DNA of 64,000 nucleotides from Prorocentrum cordatum (Eukaryota; Sar; Dinophyceae; Prorocentrales; Prorocentraceae), in contig CAUYUJ010021696.1 in the NCBI GenBank assembly GCA_963575745.1, forward strand, positions 71,061-135,060, in the 5' to 3' direction. The stretch's first letter is position 1. Each line of letters opens with the position of its first letter. The position numbers and the translations under genes are program-made. The notes under the pieces are model-generated. The model worked only from the letters and a program-made list of their open reading frames with translations. It did no database searches and was not told where the DNA came from. Shown here in pieces: positions 22,330-62,460 of this stretch.

Positions 22330-23455
22330 CAGCAACCGAAGTTTCATTTCGGCGCACCCCTCTCAAGGACCGTGGCCCTCGCGCCACAGGGAGCTCCACC
22401 GAAGGTTCATTTCAGAACACCTCTCTCGGGGATCGTGGCCTTGGCCCCACAAGGAGCTCCACCGAAGCTTCATTTCGGCACACCCTTGTCCAAGATCGCG
22501 GCCCTGGCCCCCAAGGGAGCTCCACCGAAGTTTCATGTCTGCACGCCCTTCTCAAGGATCGTGGCCCTGGCCCCGCAGGGAGCTCCAGACTCCTCTCGAG
22601 GATCTTGGCCCTGGCCCCCAAGGGAGCTCCACCGAAGGTTCATCTCAGCACACCCCTCTCGAGGATCGTGGCCTTGGCCTCACAGGGAGCTTCACCGAAG
22701 GTTCATTTCAGCACACCCCTCTCGGTAATCGTGGCCCTGGCCTCACAGGGAGCTCCACCGAAGCTTCATTTCGGTGCACCCATCTCGGGGACCGTGGCCC
22801 TGGCCCCACAAGGAGCTCCACCGAAGCTTCATTTCGGTACACCCCTCTCGAGGATCGTGGCCGTGGCCCGACAGGGAGCTCCACCGAGGGTTCATTTCGG
22901 CACACCCTTCTCGAGGATCGTGGCCCTGGCCCTACAGGGAGTTCCACCGAAGGTTCATTTCAGCACACCCCTCTCGAGGATCGTGGCCTTGGCCCCCAAG
23001 GGAGCTCTACCGAAGGTTCTTTTCGGCACACCCCTCTCGAGGATCGTGGCCCTGGCCTCACAGAGGACTCCTCCTAAGTTTTTGTTCGGCACAACCCTCA
23101 AGGAGGATCGTGGCCCTGGCCCTACAGGGGGCTCCACCGAATCGTCATTTCGGCATACCCCTCTCGAGGATCGTGGCCTTGGCCCGACAGGGAGCTCCAC
23201 CGAAGGTTCATTTCGGCACACCCCTCTCGAGGATAGCGGCACTGGCCGCACAGGGAGCTCCACCGAAGGTCCATTTCGACACACCCCTCCTGAGGACCGG
23301 GGCCCTGGCCGCGCAGGGAGCTCCACACCCCTCACGGGGATCGTGGCCCTGGCCCCACAGGGGGCTCCACCGAATCGTCATTTCAGCAGACCCCTCTCGA
23401 GGATTGTGGCCTTGGCCTCACGGGGAGCTCCACCGAAGGTTCATTTCGGCTACAC
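22330..23455. repeat. 63-bp tandem repeat, about 17 copies
   Basis: Unit GGAGCTCCACCGAAGGTTCA, then TTTCGGCACACCCCTCTCGA, then GGATCGTGGCCCTGGCCCCACAG. Successive units begin at 22390, 22453, 22516 and so on, exactly 63 bp apart, with two truncated units. Because 63 is divisible by three, frames stay open through the array (a 442-codon frame from 22287, 283 codons in another frame). Openness in several frames and no single-frame bias argue for a satellite rather than a protein. Confidence 0.9.
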
Positions 23456-25195
23456 GATTCCTATACAATCCCTGTACGAGTACCATGGGATATTATGGGA
23501 TCGCATGGGCCTCCTATACAATCCCCATACGATTCACGTGGGATCCTATAGGGCCGTATGGGATTCCTTTACAATCCCAATGCGGCTCCTATTGGATTGT
23601 ATACGATTCACATAGGACCCTGTAGGATCGCATGGGGTTCTTTTACGATCCCCATGGATTCGTACAGGATGCTGTAGAATCGCATGGGTTTCCTTTACAA
23701 TCCCTATACGATGTCGGTAGGCCTCTATAGGACCGCCTGGGATCCCCATAGGATCCCTACACGATTCCTATAGGATCTTACAGGGTCGCATGGGATCCCG
23801 GGACTATCCACAGACGGTTCCTATAGGACCCTAAAGGATCGCATTGGATTATTATGCACTCCCTTGAAGTACCCCTATAGGACCCTATAGGATCGCATGG
23901 GATTCCTACACAATCCCTATCGGATCCCTATAGGACCCGATCGGATCGCATCGGATTCTTATACAATACCTATAGGAGCCCTGTAGGAACCCATCGGATC
24001 GCATTGGATTCCTATACAATCCGTATACGATTCCGATAGGATCCTACAGGGCCGCATGGGTTTCTTTTACATTCCCTATACGATTTCTATAGGACCCTCT
24101 TGGATGGCATGGGATCTTCATAGAATCCCCACAGGATCCTATAGGATCTTGCAGGGTCGCATGGGATTCCTTTAGAATCCCTATACGATTTCTATAGGAT
24201 CCTACAGGATTGCATGGGATCCCTGTAGAATTCCCACAGCTTCCTGTAGGATCCCTATAGGACCCTATGGGATCCCTATAGGATCCCCGCAGGATCCTCC
24301 TAGGATCCCTATCGGATCACATGGGATTCCCATACAATCCCAATACGATTCCATTGGATCCTACAGGATCGCATGGGATGCGTATAGAATCCCCGGAGGA
24401 TCCGATACTGTCCTTTTGGATCTTATCGTATCGCATGGGATCCCGATCGGGTCTTTATAGAATCCTATAGAATCGCATGGGGTTCTACACAATTGTTACA
24501 GGATTCCTATTGGATCCTACAGGATCGCACGGGATTCTCAATACAGTCCCCATACGATTCTTATAGGATCCTACGGGATCGTATTGGATCTTGACAGAAT
24601 CCCAACATGATCCGATAGGATCACATAGGACCCTATAGGATCGCATAGGGGCCCCATAGGACCCCCATGGGATCATATAGGAACGCATGGGGTTCCCATA
24701 CAAGTCCTATCGGATCTTTATAGGACCCGATAGAATCGCATGGGATTCCTTTACAATCCTTATACGAGTCCTACATGATCCTGCAGGGTCGCATGGGATC
24801 CCCGAACAATCACCATATGATTCCTATAAGATCCTACAGGATTGCATGGGATCCTCATAGAATTCCCACAGGATCCTGTAGGATCCCTATAGGGTCTCAT
24901 GGGGTTCCTACACAATCCCTATAGGCTCCTGTAGGATCGTATAGGATTCCTATGCAATCCCTTTAGGATTCCTATAGGATCCTACAGGGTCGCATGGCAT
25001 TCCTATACAATCCCCATGGGATCCCCATAGGATCCTACAGGATCGCATGGGATCCCTATAGAATCCCCGCAGCATCCCCATATGATCCCTATAGGACCCT
25101 AAAAGACCGCATCGGATCCCTATATGATCCCCATAGGGCCCTATAGGACCCCGATTGGATTCATTATATAGGATCATGTAGGAGCCGATAGATTC
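23455..25195. repeat. GGATCC/CCTATAGG palindrome-rich array
   Basis: About 1.74 kb of degenerate units, typically 45-60 bp, alternating GGATCGCATGGGATTCC with CTATAGGATCC and TACAATCCC blocks. GGATCC, CCTATAGG and GATC sites are extremely dense, so the DNA is full of short palindromes. No coding frame. It abuts the 63-bp array directly. Confidence 0.85.
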
Positions 25196-36334: not shown

Positions 36335-37560
36335 CGTGTGAGCCTTGTTGGAGCCTTGCATGGTGGGCCGGCCGGCTTGGGCAGTCTCGAGCCGTCTTGG
36401 GGCCATCTTGGGCCGTGTTGGAGGCTTGGGCCCTCTAGGGACCTTACGAGGGCTACGTAGGCCCTCCTGTTGGCCTCCCATGGCCTTTTGGGGTGCCTCC
36501 CATGGCGTTCTTGGGCTTCTCTTAGGGGCCTTGTGAAGGCCTCTTGGGCCTCTTTTCGGCTCAGGTGGGGCTTCCTTGGGCAGTCCTGGGGCAGTCCAGG
36601 CCGACTAGAGGCTCTCTTGGGGGTCTCTTGGGCCGTCTTGGGGCGATACTGGAGACCTCCCTAGCTGTTGTGGACGCTGCTAAGACCCGGCCAGCGAATG
36701 TGCTGAAAGGGCACGCTTCCCGAAAAGACTGAAGCGATGTTTGCGTTCTGGGAGCCCTGTTGAGGGCGTCTGGGCCGTCTTGGGGGCCTCTGGAGGCCCT
36801 CTGGGTCTTTCTTGGAGCGCTCTTGTGCTGTCTTGGGTTTCTCTTCGGCCTCTCTGATCACCGCTCTGATCGCTTCGGGGCCTTGTGAGGGCCTGTTGGG
36901 CCTCTTTTGGGCTCATGTGTGGAATCCTTGGGCAGTCTTGGGGCCATCCAGGCCGTCTATAGATTCTCTTGGGGGTTTCTTGGACCGTCTTGGGGCGATA
37001 TTGGAGGCCTTTTTGGCTGTCCTGGACGCTGCAAAGACCCGAACAGCGATTGTGCTGAAAATGCACGTTTCCCTACGCGAATGAGGCGATTTCTGCATCA
37101 TGGGCTCTGGAGGCCCTCTGGGTCCTTCTTGGAGCGCTCTTGTGCTGTCTTGGGCCTTTCCTCGGCCTCTCTGAGCACCGCTCTGATCGCTTCGGGGCCT
37201 TGTGAGGGCCTGTTGGGCCTCTTTATGGCTCATGTCCTTGTGCAGTCTTGGCGCCATCCAAGTCGTCTACAGGCTCCCTTGGGGTCTCTTGGACCGTCTT
37301 GGGTCGATACCGGAAGCCTTTTTGGCTGTTCTGAACGTTGCAAAGACCCGAAAAGCGATTGTGCTGAAAATGCATGTTTTCCATACGGGAATCAAGCGAT
37401 GTCTGCATCATGGGAGCCCTGTTGAGGGCCTCCTGGGCCGTCCTGAGGGCCTCTGGAGGCCCTCCGGGTCCTTCTTGGAGCGCTCTTGTGTTGTCTTGTG
37501 TCTCTCTTCGGCATCTCTGATCACCGCTCTGATCGCTTGTGGCCTGCTGGAAGGACCGGC
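36335..37560. repeat. GGCCTCTTGGG-type array, three long units
   Basis: Three ~320-bp units each combine CTTGGGGCC-type short repeats with an AT-richer block (GCTGCAAAGACCCG, AGCGATTGTGCTGAAAATGC, ACGGGAATCAAGCGATG variants at about 36680, 37025 and 37335), followed by GAGCGCTCTTGTGYTGTCTTG and CTCTGATCACCGCTCTGATC. Frames of up to about 170 codons are repeat translations. Confidence 0.82.
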
Positions 37561-37994
37561 GAAGCGCCCTGGGAGGTCCAGGACGAGACGGGGGGCCTTT
37601 GGCAAGGATGTCCATGGTGCCCAGAAACCCGCGATCCTGGGGGTGCTGTTTGGGGGTGGGGTGACAGGGGTTTCCCCCCCCTTGGCTTACAAAAATAATT
37701 ATAAGAACAGTTGTGTGTATATATACATATATCTATATATGCCTGTAATTATGTATATGTTGGGGCGCTCCGAAAAGGGCCTCGCCTTTGAGGGGTCGAA
37801 AGAGTCGGCATCTGTTCCTCGGTGGGAGGCCTGCGGACGCAAAACGGAGGCGGCTCCGCTGGCGGAAGCCGGCGGAAGGCCTGCGGAGGCTTGCGGGGGC
37901 AAGCATGTTGTCGCCACGATGTGCCATTTTTTCCGGGGTCAGACTCGGGGCTTCCAGGACCCGCCATCTGCAAATTTGATGGTGTTTTTTTCAG

Positions 37995-38244: not shown

Positions 38245-38420
38245 TCGTTGTCCTCGTCTGTCTCCTCAGCTTCCTCCTCCTCCTCTTCCTCCTCCTCCAA
38301 TCAAGCCCGCTGCGCCCAGCGCCGCGCTTCTTCACACTGCTGGCATCGGGTGCCTCGCCACTGCACGGCACGCCCTGCGGCCTTGAGACGCCAAATGAAC
38401 TCCTGGGAGATACGGTCGCT
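38245..38420 (+). other. Exon-like island between TCC arrays
   Basis: TCC triplets (38245-38300) give way to about 120 bp in which two plus frames have strong G/C third positions (PAPRFFTLLASGASPLHGTP in one, AAPSAALLHTAGIGCLATAR in the other). The next TCC array starts at 38421. It could be an exon, but the frame is ambiguous. Confidence 0.28.
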
Positions 38421-38575
38421 CCTCCTCCTCCTCCTCCTCCTCCTCCTCCTCTTCCTCCTCCTCCTCCTCCTCCGCCTCGCCATCGTCGTCGTCCTCCTCC
38501 TCCTCCTCCTCGCCATCGTCGTCGTCCTCCTCCTCCTCCTCCTCCTCCTCCTCCTCCTCCTCCTCCTCCTCACCA
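38421..38575. repeat. (TCC)n microsatellite with CATCGTCGTCG inserts
   Basis: TCC triplets containing twice the insert CTCGCCATCGTCGTCGTCC, which recurs at 40723-40770. It ends one base before the spliced-leader relic. Confidence 0.93.
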
Positions 38576-38597
38576 TCCGTAGCCATTTTGGCTCAAG
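38576..38597 (+). other. Complete dinoflagellate spliced-leader (DinoSL) relic
   Basis: All 22 bases of the conserved leader are present (starts TCCGTAGCC, ends TTTTGGCTCAAG, with T at the variable first position). In an SL RNA gene the leader is followed by a GT donor; here CCGTTCCC follows, so this is not an SL RNA gene. Fusion of SL to downstream coding-like DNA is the established signature of mRNA-derived retroposition in dinoflagellates. It sets plus orientation for the retrocopy. Confidence 0.95.
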
Positions 38598-40269
38598 CCG
38601 TTCCCTGTCGCCCCGTCCCGCGTCCCGCCTAGCGCTCGGGTGCAGGACTGCTTGGGAGATGGCTGCGGTCGGCTGCACGGCCGCCCTCGGGGCAGCGAAG
38701 CAGCCTGCGGCCGCGGCGGGCCCCCGCTCGCTGTGGCCTGTGCGCCGCGCCAGGCAGACAGCTGCCCGCGGGGCGGCGGCTGGGCGCCTGGCGGCTGCCC
38801 TCCAGAGAGTGAGACGAGCTGGAGGCGCAGGTGGAGGCGCTGCTGGCAGCGGGCCAGGCGGCGGCCCAGGCGGCGGCCCAGGCAGCGGCTCGTGTGCTCC
38901 CCGCGGCGCAGGGCGTCGGCGGGCACGAGGCTACTGGTGCTGCGGCTCCCGTGCAGGGCGCGGCGGCCGCCGTCGGTGCGGAGCTGGTGGAGAGGCTCAC
39001 GCTGAGCGTGCCCGTCCTCAGGGCCGACTGCGAGGACGGGGAGGTCAGCGCGCTCGACGTCGGCAAGCGCAACGTGGTGACGCACCACCCTGCGGTGCCT
39101 GCCCCCGCGCTGTGCGCGCCATGTCGCAACGCGCGCTTAACCGCGTGCAGCGGGAGGCGCGCAGGACGGCGCCGTGGCGGAGGCTTGGCAGCAGGCGCGG
39201 CTGTCGCGCGCCCCTGCTGCCGCCGTGCCGCAGGCAGCCTGCCGTGCGGTCGACGGCCGAGGCTGTGCCGCTCGAGTGGGAGGTGAAGCTTCGGCGCGGA
39301 CGCCGCGTGGCTGGCAGTGCACCTCCAGGCTGGCGTCCAGTTCGCCCTCGCCGAGCGGGTGTGGCGTGCCGTCAGCCCACCAGCGAGGGGGCCCTTGGCG
39401 TCCAGAGCTCTCTGGTTCCGCGCCCCGGCCATGGGCAAGCAGTGTCGTGGAGCTGGTGGTCTCCGTGGCGGCGCTGCCGCTGCTGATGAGGATCCTGCTA
39501 CTGGCGGAGACGATATCGGGCGTGCTGGTGTTCAGGCAGCGCAACGCGGTGGCGCTCTGCTGGGGCAGGCTGGAGGTAGTCATTACGGGCAGGCTGCTGG
39601 TGCCCCTGACTTTCGTGGCGACGATGGTGGACAAGATCTTCTGGTCGTTGGAGGTCTTCGTGGGGATGCTCATGGGGATGCTGCCCCTGACCAGCGCGAA
39701 GACGATGGTGGCCTACAAGGGCGTGCAGGCTGTCATGCTCTTCGGGTCGCTGGGGGTCTTCCTGATGCTGAGCTTGGGCATGGATGTCGTCCTGGGCGGG
39801 CCGGCGGTGGACCAGATGGCGGGGACTCTCTTCGGCATGCGGGTGGCGCCCCTGACCCACGAGGTGATGAGGATGGCTTTCTTGATGCAGCTGGAGTTTG
39901 TCCTGAAGTTGATGGCGATGACGATGGTGTTCGTGCCGCTCAACGTCGCTCGCGACCTGCTGGAGTCGCCGAGGCCGTCGGCAAGGTGCGGCTCAAGGTG
40001 CTGCAGCGGCACATGGCGACGACGTCCGACAACACCGACTTCGACCGAGACCTTCGGAGGCCAGGCTGGCGCATGGAGGCGGAGGCGGACAGTCCGACGC
40101 CCGCCACGGCGGCCGAGCGTCGAGCGGGTCGGGCCTGGCTTCGTGGTGGCCGCGAGGCCCGTGTATCCATGAGCGAGGCCTGGATCAGTGGCGATGTCGA
40201 CGATCGTGGCGGCTGGGTCTCAAAAAGGGCCTTGGATCGCTATTGTCGGGCCACGGGTCGCTGCTGACC
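38598..40269 (+). pseudogene. SL-marked retrocopy of an unknown gene
   Basis: Starting right after the SL relic, about 1.67 kb of roughly 70% GC DNA is coding-like but no single frame carries it. An ATG at 38659 opens AAVGCTAALGAAKQPAAAA; near 38810 the bias moves to another frame (DELEAQVEALLAAGQAAAQA, coiled-coil-like); from 39290 a 316-codon frame (39317-40267) is uninterrupted, with AAWLAVHLQAGVQFALAERV early and VGKVRLKVLQRHMATTSDNT late. In its middle (39440-39960) the third-position bias favours a different, hydrophobic frame. Frame switches suggest a decayed retrocopy or indel errors. No poly(A) tail and no domain are recognised. Confidence 0.5.
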
Positions 40270-40722
40270 CTGGCAAGTTTCATGGTTTGCTCGGCTCCGA
40301 GTGCGCAGAGGACGGATGAATGCGTTGGCTTCGACGCGGCGCGCACTTCGAGGTCACGCGCGTCCGTGGGGGTCGCGCCGTAATGAGCCTTGGTGCGCGT
40401 CGAACCCTGCGGGGTTAACCGGCCCATCCCCCATGTCTAGCCAGCGGCAGAGATGCGACGAGGGATTGACTGCGCACTTTGGGGTTCCCTTGGCTTTCAA
40501 TCGAGGGAGCCCCCAGGACAGAGAGCAGGCGACCTGCTCACAGGGGAAGAAGTCGGCGAGCTTTTTTCCTCAGGGGGGCCCTGTCTTGGCCCCTGGCTGG
40601 TCTTCGGCCTTCCAGCCAGGGTGACAGAAAGGTCCTCTCCGACGGGCCCCCCTGGAGGGTTTTTCGCTGGTCCGTCGGACTCTCTCTTTCTTCTCTTTCT
40701 CCCTCAGTGGCGTGCGATCCTC

Positions 40723-40800
40723 CTCGCCATCGTGGTCGTCCTCCTCCTCCTCCTCGCCATCGTCGTCGTCCTCCTCCTCCTCGTCCACATCCTCCACCTC
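40723..40800. repeat. TCC microsatellite with CATCGTCGTCG inserts
   Basis: Same composite motif as at 38421-38575. It follows a pyrimidine-rich TTCTCCCTCAG at about 40708 that resembles a splice acceptor. Confidence 0.85.
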
Positions 40801-40969
40801 CCGCCCCCCCTTCTCCCCCCGCCCCCATCGGCCGAGGCGAGGCCCCTCTGCGGCCCGGGGCGCCCGCCCCCCCCCCCCCCCCCGAAGCGGCCCTCTCGAG
40901 AGTCCCTTCGCAAGCCGCCGCGGGCCGCCTGTGCGGAGGGCCATGGGCTTCCAGCTTCGTTCTTCGATG

Positions 40970-60719: not shown

Positions 60720-62110
60720 CATTCGCGATGGCAGTCGCAGTGGCAACGGCAGTCGCAGTCACAGCCTCAGCCTCAGCCTGCCTCAGCCTCAGCCTCAGCC
60801 TGCCTCAGTCTCAGCCTGCCTCAGCCTCAGCCTCAGCCTGCTTCAGCCTCAGCCTCAGTCTGCCTTCAGCCTCGGCCTCAGCCTCAGCCTGCCTCAGCCT
60901 CAGCCTGCATCAGCCTCAGCCTCAGCCTCAGCCTGCCTCAGCATCAGCCTGCCTCAGCCTCAGCCTCAGCCTGCCTCAGCCTCAGCCTCAGCCTGCTTCA
61001 GCCTCAGCCTCAGTCTGCCTTCAGCCTCGGCCTCAGCCTCAGCCTGCCTCAGCCTCAGCCTGCATCAGCCTCAGCCTCAGCCTCAGCCTGCCTCAGCATC
61101 AGCCTGCCTCAGCCTCAGCCTCAGCCTGCCTCAGCCTCAGCCTCAGCCTGCTTCAGCCTCAGCCTCAGTCTGCCTTCAGCCTCGGCCTCAGCCTCAGCCT
61201 GCCTCAGCCTCAGCCTGCATCAGCCTCAGCCTCAGCCTCAGCCTGCCTCAGCCAGCCTGCCTCAGCCTCAGCCTCAGCCTGCCTCAGCCTCAGCCTGCTT
61301 CAGCCTCAGCCTCAGTCTGCCTTCAGCCTCGGCCTCAGCCTCAGCCTGCCTCAGCCTCAGCCTGCATCAGCCTCAGCCTCAGCCTCAGCCTGCCTCAGCA
61401 TCAGTCTGCCTCAGCCTCAGCCTCAGCCTGCCTCAGCCTCAGCCTCAGCCTCAGCCTCAGCCTCAGCCTTTCAGCCTCAGCCTCAGTCTGCCTTCAGCCT
61501 CGGCCTCAGCCTCAGCCTGCCTCAGCCTCAGCCTGCATCAGCCTCAGCCTCAGCCTCAGCCTGCCTCAGCATCAGCCTGCCTCAGCCTCAGCCTCAGCCT
61601 GCCTCAGCCTCAGCCTCAGCCTGCTTCAGCCTCAGCCTCAGTCTGCCTTCAGCCTCGGCCTCAGCCTCAGCCTGCCTCAGCCTCAGCCTGCATCAGCCTC
61701 AGCCTCAGCCTCAGCCTGCCTCAGCCTCAGCCTGCCTCAGCCTCAGCCTCAGCCTCTGCTTCAGCCTCAGCCTCAGTCTGCCTTCAGCCTCGGCCTCAGC
61801 CTCAGCCTGCCTCAGCCTCAGCCTGCATCAGCCTCAGCCTCAGCCTCAGCCTGCCTCAGCATCAGCCTGCCTCAGCCTCAGCCTCAGCCTGCCTCAGCCT
61901 CAGCCTCAGCCTCCCTCAGCCTCTGCCTTCAGCCTCGGCCTCAGCCTCAGCCTGCCTCAGCCTCAGCCTGCATCAGCCTCAGCCTCAGCCTCAGCCTGCC
62001 TCAGCAGCCTCAGCCTTCAGCCTCAGCCTCAGGCCAGCCTCAAATGGAGTCAGCCTGCCTCAGCGCCTGCCTCAGCCTTGAAGAAGTCACTCAGCCTCAG
62101 CCTGCCTCAG
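60720..62110. repeat. CAGCCT hexamer array with ~155-bp higher-order period
   Basis: Hexamers CAGCCT with GCCTCAG/GCATCAG variants. The marker TCTGCCTTCAGCCTCGG recurs at 60859, 61014, 61169, 61316, 61487, 61642, 61777 and 61922, giving spacings of 135-171 bp, mostly 155. Because the base unit is six bases, a frame stays open for 600 codons (60728-62530), reading SLSLSLPQPQPQPASAS-type repeats. No non-repeat coding segment supports a protein. Confidence 0.93.
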
Positions 62111-62120
62111 CCTCAGCATT

Positions 62121-62460
62121 GGAGTTCTGGGAACTTGAAGAACACGAAGTGGCCTACAGTTGGCTCCGGGCATTCAAAATCATGCCCAGGAATGGAGTTC
62201 TGGGAACTCGAAGAGCACGAAGTGGCCTACAGTTGGCTATGGGCATTCAAAATGTGGCCCGGGAATGGAGTTCTGGGAACTCGAAGAGCACGAAGTGGCT
62301 TACAGTTGGCTCCGGGCATTCAAAATGTGGCCCGGGAGTGGAGTTCTGGGAGCTCCAAGACCACGAAGTGGCCTACAGTTGGCTCCGGGCATTCAGAATG
62401 TGGCCCGGGAGTGGAGTTCTGGGACCTCGAAGACCACGAAGTGTGTAACTGTTGGCTAAA
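62121..62460. repeat. Exact 73-bp tandem repeat, five units
   Basis: Units start at 62121, 62194, 62267, 62340 and 62413, each with GGAGTTCTGGGAACTCGAAG, CACGAAGTGGCCTACAGTTG and GCTCCGGGCATTCAAAATG. Since 73 is not a multiple of three, successive units are read in different frames although the 600-codon frame passes through them. Confidence 0.95.

Follow-up and report, generated by a model that had tools for sequence, protein, structure and literature searches.

A spliced-leader-led insert in a TCC microsatellite of the dinoflagellate Prorocentrum cordatum: a probable non-autonomous retroelement moved by LINE machinery

Retrogenes tagged with the dinoflagellate spliced leader (DinoSL, hereafter SL) have reportedly been described by Slamovits and Keeling and by Song et al. 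HAL1-like elements and tailed SINEs are non-autonomous, are mobilised by LINEs, and retain either an ORF or a 3′ tail of LINE type. The family described below resembles these in that it lacks RT, is multi-copy, and carries a structured, conserved 3′ tail with a fixed 3′ terminus. It differs from them in that its 5′ end is supplied by trans-splicing and its autonomous partner is only a candidate.

Genomic DinoSL serves as a retrogene tag in the accessible portions of two papers (PMC6050394, PMC12014239). In the first of these, where DinoSL-tagged retrogenes are reviewed, a genomic SL marks reverse-transcribed, trans-spliced RNA, as it does here; repeated cycles add truncated SL relics, according to the available text of two others (PMC3229502, PMC7245778). 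Unlike the retrogenes in the portion of the review consulted (PMC6050394), some of the SL-led copies considered here are LINEs or belong to a tailed repeat family, and they lie at microsatellites. Togen, a (TG)n-specific microsatellite non-LTR retrotransposon, likewise inserts into simple repeats, but the elements in the accessible part of that report (PMC4640811) encode a restriction-like endonuclease, whereas the LINEs here match Exo_endo_phos and have the trans-spliced leader as their 5′ end. SymbioLINE of Symbiodinium is a dinoflagellate LINE with two ORFs, as here, but a methyltransferase is reported in its ORF1 (PMC5890265), and “leader”, “DinoSL” and “microsatellite” are absent as whole words from the available text of that paper. 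SL-tagged retrogenes, dinoflagellate LINEs and microsatellite-specific LINEs are thus already known, each apart, in the portions of the literature consulted; the accessible text of the openly licensed literature yielded no account of either SL-led LINEs or tailed elements residing at dinoflagellate microsatellites.

The window analysed here is a 64,000-nucleotide stretch of the P. cordatum genome. It contains an insert that begins with an SL at 38576, continues as a broken ORF, and ends at 40717 with a 3′ tail of about 330 nt that holds a covarying hairpin. An initial annotation, which read the locus as a retroposed mRNA, had placed the end at 40269, short of the tail. The features are as follows.

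38419..38571, plus strand: upstream (TCC)n microsatellite (target array, left half); composite unit GCCATCGTCGTCGTCCTCC present twice, at 38479-38497 and 38512-38530
38564..38576, plus strand: probable left target-site duplication TCCTCCTCACCAT, whose last T doubles as the first SL base
38576..38597, plus strand: DinoSL, complete 22 nt (0 mismatches; genome-wide count)
38659..39445, plus strand: remains of the N-terminal ORF, from ATG 38659 (MAAVGCTAALGAA..., SLWPVRRAR), the frame switching near 38810, 39110 and 39290
39405..39964, plus strand: middle segment (~560 bp); no DNA counterpart in the compared relatives, and no second genomic copy within the sensitivity of the search
39965..40267, plus strand: C-terminal coding part (KVRLKVLQRHM...DFDRDLRRPGWRMEAEAD...), stop TGA 40265-40267
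40387..40717, plus strand: shared 3′ tail module with hairpin and pyrimidine tract, terminus CCCTCAGTGGCGTGCGA
40718..40730, plus strand: probable right target-site duplication TCCTCCTCGCCAT, differing from the left copy by 1 mismatch
40718..40801, plus strand: TCC array continued to the right of the insert, with composite units at 40726-40744 (1 mismatch) and 40756-40774

At its 5′ end the insert carries an SL that is exact over 22/22 bases (TCCGTAGCCATTTTGGCTCAAG). No other copy occurs in the window at up to 3 mismatches, compared to an expectation of 0.01 in shuffled sequence, which rules out a chance match. On its upstream side the SL adjoins the (TCC)n array directly, and on its downstream side the next bases are CCGTTC, so that there is no GT donor. 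An SL placed directly 5′ of coding DNA without a donor is the arrangement of a DinoSL-tagged retrocopy. The exact SL would also suit an SL RNA gene or a tandem SL array, but with a single copy and no donor in the window, and no Rfam family at gathering score anywhere in it, such a reading is exceedingly improbable and an SL RNA gene was ruled out at this locus. The initial annotation was right about this end of the insert: all 22 bases are present, no splice donor follows, the DNA joined to the SL is coding-like (it is matched by tblastn with the protein of a related locus, L051), and the tandem SL array with GT donors that it had set against its own reading is not there. No SL relic lies behind the SL of the window copy, which indicates that there was no second cycle.

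Complete SLs are common in this genome. Across 4.13 Gb there are 14,218 exact matches to the SL 21-mer (7,201 + 7,017; 0 for a reversed-pattern control), and a complete relic is therefore neither rare nor a sign of youth. The suggestion that the full-length relic is notable and the insertion young does not survive this count, and the matched segments of the compared relatives are at most 92% identical. An exact SL followed by an exact 15-nt relic is found in 1,202 of the 14,218 cases (8.5%) and at 5 of 49 sampled places.

These SLs are associated with simple repeats in a polar manner. A simple repeat, called at a 75% threshold of the analyst’s choice, lies within 40 nt upstream of 35 of the 49 sampled SLs, which are the first 49 listed in the genome count and not a random draw (36/50 including the window). 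Within 40 nt downstream there is none at any of the 50 places, and the background among 40-mers is 387/6,382 in the window and 589/19,784 in the loci (3–6%). Genome-wide, a perfect (CTC)4 lies 0–8 nt upstream of 1,694 of the 7,017 reverse-strand SLs and (GGA)4 of 651, compared to a (CTC)4 background of 0.7–1.9% in sampled sequence; (CTC)4 downstream of the SL occurs in 0 of 14,218. Reverse-strand counts alone were used, since forward-strand counts are inflated by overlapping starts, and each reverse-strand SL appears once among the matches listed (about 100 per count). By this strict 12-nt test, about one third of reverse-strand SLs lie at TCC or GGA arrays. The ratio of TCC to GGA is 2.6 to 1 genome-wide and 23 to 11 in the sample of 49 (p 0.058), so the strong TCC bias is drawn from the genome-wide counts and not from the sample.

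Allowing up to 2 mismatches, the composite unit GCCATCGTCGTCGTCCTCC has just four occurrences in the window, at 38479, 38512, 40726 and 40756. Because the same unit flanks the insert on both sides, the element has split one pre-existing array. TCC repeats also flank both sides of L052, a second copy with two ends, and of a LINE at L009. A 13-nt target-site duplication at the window insert is likely (38564-38576 and 40718-40730, 1 mismatch), although it lies inside the repeat and is hence ambiguous; in the flank comparison, the best-scoring match falls one repeat unit further down.

It could be supposed that there was no microsatellite targeting and that the TCC repeats grew after insertion, for example by slippage at element ends. 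Retrotransposons can generate microsatellites, as stated in the available part of PMC2887409, and the tails of this family end directly in TCC. However, the same composite unit flanks the window insert on both sides, TA, CAT, ACACAG and GGA repeats precede SLs as well, and a trans-spliced RNA has nothing encoded 5′ of its SL. Growth after insertion is very unlikely on these grounds.

The broken ORF of the insert is related to an orphan protein of about 530 aa. With the 536-aa L051 protein as query, tblastn matches the window at 38659-39321 in one frame and at 38708-40261 in another, such that the window copy retains N-terminal and C-terminal ORF blocks in shifting frames. Reading frames and homology together support frame switches near 38810, 39110 and 39290. 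Two of the switches proposed initially, at about 38810 and 39290, are among them; those put at 39440 and 39960 are better seen as the edges of the middle segment of about 560 bp, and that near 39110 had been missed. The frame breaks can be accounted for without assembly indels, which the initial annotation had considered. Long open frames in this window say little about genes, since GC-rich simple repeats leave many frames open.

From the SL to 39398, the window is 73% identical in DNA to L050. Between 39405 and 39964 there is no DNA match elsewhere in the genome, nor in the relatives compared. Stretches that begin in the C-terminal part are 78–92% identical to L051–L055, and around 39965-39976 the identity to these loci, about 0.3 over the preceding 100 bases, rises to 0.92–0.96 over the next 100. 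This jump means that the window copy is a mosaic, or else that its middle is very diverged. L052 likewise starts with an SL, is about as long, ends at the same 3′ terminus and is flanked by TCC repeats on either side, and its DNA matches that of the window towards both ends only, the middle being without a match. The ORF is continuous in L051 (536 codons) and L052 (524 codons). Their dN/dS of 0.83 is near-neutral and gives no support for strong recent selection on either copy.

Pfam gave no family at its cut-off for six reading-frame pieces of the insert and no match at all for the L051 protein, so a known protein domain in the insert was rejected. The insert encodes neither endonuclease nor RT, as a microsatellite-targeting non-LTR retrotransposon would, and no relation could be detected between the ORF family and the ORFs at the sampled SL loci. 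A large protein database yielded 7 matches at E ≤ 0.001 (8,000 candidates scored): 3 labelled P. cordatum, 2 MMETSP transcripts and 2 nameless.

The insert could instead be a plain retrocopy, one in which LINE activity happened to copy the mRNA of an ordinary host gene, perhaps from a host gene family that is often retroposed. Ordinary mRNA retrocopies are present in this genome as well. L030 and L044 are non-repeat insertions with A-rich ends and duplications of 17 and 21 bp, and L030 (SL at 1001, minus strand), a copy of a WD40-repeat protein mRNA with its 17-bp duplication, is a clear case of the ordinary kind and a precedent for an SL-tagged host-gene copy. Across the sample, non-simple duplications of at least 10 nt occur at 4 of 50 SL places, 2 of them re-used SL junctions, compared to 3/983 at 11 nt or more among mismatched pairs. 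The relatives of the insert are annotated as uncharacterised P. cordatum proteins, two are among MMETSP transcripts, and two SL-bearing members of the ORF family resemble retrocopies: L051 and L055 lack the tail of the window type, have (AAAC)n-like 3′ ends, and lie at non-repeat targets with duplications of 12 bp (L051) and 17 bp (L055). L055 also carries a decayed relic in addition to its SL. Against this reading, the window copy has no A-rich 3′ end, and no intron-bearing parental paralogue, which had been proposed as a check, was seen in the 56 match rows of an own-genome search with 38598-40716 (40/457 candidates scored), rows that mark the insert as a member of a repeat family; the uninterrupted ORFs of L051 and L052 likewise give no sign of such a parent.

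The 3′ tail also stands against a plain retrocopy. It was found in 9 of the 12 members compared, and is missing from L050, L051 and L055 within the stretch examined. The window insert ends GTGGCGTGCGA and then passes into the TCC repeat. All 9 tailed members end GTGGCGTGCGATCC or a variant of it, followed in every one of these cases by a TCC-rich repeat, and 4 further tail loci carry the same terminus. A tail-only genome search gave 40 rows (40/439 candidates scored), in which the last ~160 nt are the most conserved. Moreover, the tail is joined to different upstream sequence at other loci: L056 and L058 have a common 570-nt stretch, and L062 and L064 share 322 nt that start before the tail and include it. 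Where the tail follows different sequence, 5′ truncation next to host DNA could be part of the reason, as a plain retrocopy would allow. Given the fixed terminus at TCC, the tail with its different upstream partners and the search for a parent, a plain host-gene retrocopy is rather unlikely. The initial reading of a retroposed mRNA thus holds in part: the SL-bearing relatives with their 12- and 17-bp duplications point to a trans-spliced RNA that was reverse-transcribed, but a repeat family with a structured common 3′ tail whose fixed terminus abuts TCC repeat does not support a plain gene retrocopy. The protein, with neither a Pfam match nor relatives among the ORFs of the sampled SL loci, does not help to tell an element from a much-copied host gene family; it is copy number and tail that favour an element.

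The hairpin of the tail lies at about 40570-40655, with outer arms at ~40570-40581 and ~40644-40655 and inner arms at ~40590-40600 and ~40612-40621. In the alignment from which this structure was also predicted, 94.9% of cells are paired compared to 90.0% in shuffles, cells with double (compensatory) changes number 12 compared to 4.7, and the covariation score is 0.249 compared to 0.166; none of the three values is reached in 500 shuffles. Two other measures are not exceptional, namely 5 pairs with double changes (47/500 shuffles) and 14 pair types (393/500). Folding of the tail as a single sequence is weak (z −1.62), so the case for the hairpin comes from the alignment. The family is multi-copy, with a common 3′ tail and a conserved RNA structure, as is characteristic of non-autonomous elements mobilised by LINEs.

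Candidate machinery for such mobilisation is found among the SL loci. In an ORF scan of one ORF per locus at 38 of 48 loci (E limits 0.001 and 0.01), 12/38 had an endonuclease (PF03372) and/or RT (PF00078), 5 of them above the curated cut-off, and 26/38 had neither. The Exo_endo_phos domain of the SL-led LINEs is one that we take to be APE-like. L009, continued in L066, is a 6.0-kb SL-led LINE with an SL and a 15-nt relic, followed by ORF1 and by an ORF2 with endonuclease and RT. It ends CACGTGCGC and then (TCC)n, and TCC lies upstream of it as well. At L028 joined with L067, a frame is open for 2,580 codons downstream of the SL; its first 1,298 codons contain an endonuclease match and an RT match below the curated cut-off.

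The last bases before TCC are CGTGCGA in the family tail, CGTGCGC in the L009 LINE and CGTGCAC in an SL-led insertion at L023. In the sequences examined, GTGCNNTCCTCCT is present in 8 of 13 tail copies, at the 3′ ends of two SL elements (L023, L066) and at one other place (L013). The terminal CGTGC[GA][AC] before TCC hints that 3′ ends might follow a common rule. The 330-nt tail itself was not found in an autonomous LINE, the best match having an E of 0.12 in four LINE-containing stretches, of which one (L009) has a located 3′ end; with one located end of four, the terminal heptamer is thin evidence for the partner.

We consider it probable that the insert is a non-autonomous, trans-spliced retroelement that is moved by LINE machinery and lands in microsatellites. 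The stretch 38576-40717 would be a decayed copy of a multi-copy element that encodes an orphan protein of ~500 aa. The RNA of the element would be transcribed and would receive the cell’s spliced leader on its 5′ end by trans-splicing, as its SL suggests. LINE-encoded machinery probably recognises the structured 3′ tail, and the RNA would then be reverse-transcribed at a nick in a TCC microsatellite, up to the SL. The outcome would be what the structure of the locus displays, a full-length SL-led copy within a split array. Frame breaks would have accumulated later, and the middle would have been replaced or would have diverged beyond recognition.

A further step can be put forward only tentatively: SL-led LINEs and their passengers may renew their own 5′ ends, the microsatellite providing a place to land as well as a signal for splicing; many relics would then mark this cycle and not host retrogenes. 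Landing 3′ of a sense-strand (TCC)n would put a polypyrimidine tract before the AG of the relic (CCGTAG followed by CCATTTTGG). The (TCC)n and the relic AG would form a ready-made trans-splice acceptor, at which read-through transcripts could regain a capped SL in each cycle, and a re-spliced RNA would begin with the SL and CCATTTTGGCTCAAG. Relics were explained earlier by re-splicing at the AG of an old SL, as given in the accessible part of PMC3229502. The TCC bias would fit such renewal, yet it would fit a pairing rule for 3′ ends too, and many SLs are preceded by GGA arrays, which are not pyrimidine-rich.

Retrogene counts based on the SL alone may be inflated by mobile elements, because LINEs and tailed repeats are among the SL-led copies and about one third of reverse-strand SLs lie at TCC or GGA arrays. 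The LINEs described here provide concrete candidate machinery, where the literature, in the portions consulted, credits retrotransposons in general terms. The anatomy of these insertions, namely target, 3′ tail and 5′ end, is now testable.

Some minor observations concern other loci and other parts of the window. L039 (1001-2560) and L023 (1001 to ~4890) contain two serial SL-led insertions that re-use one repeat/SL junction, as though new insertions favoured the boundary of an older one. The predicted P. cordatum protein P0002 begins with PFWLK, the in-frame translation of the SL, and gene models may extend across SL relics. Long tandem arrays occupy the window at 22335-25160 and 60762-62443 (units of 63 bp, 53 bp (TATAGGATCC-like) and 73 bp, and (CAGCCT)n), and diverged repeated segments with a spacing of ~310–350 bp lie at 36518-37581.
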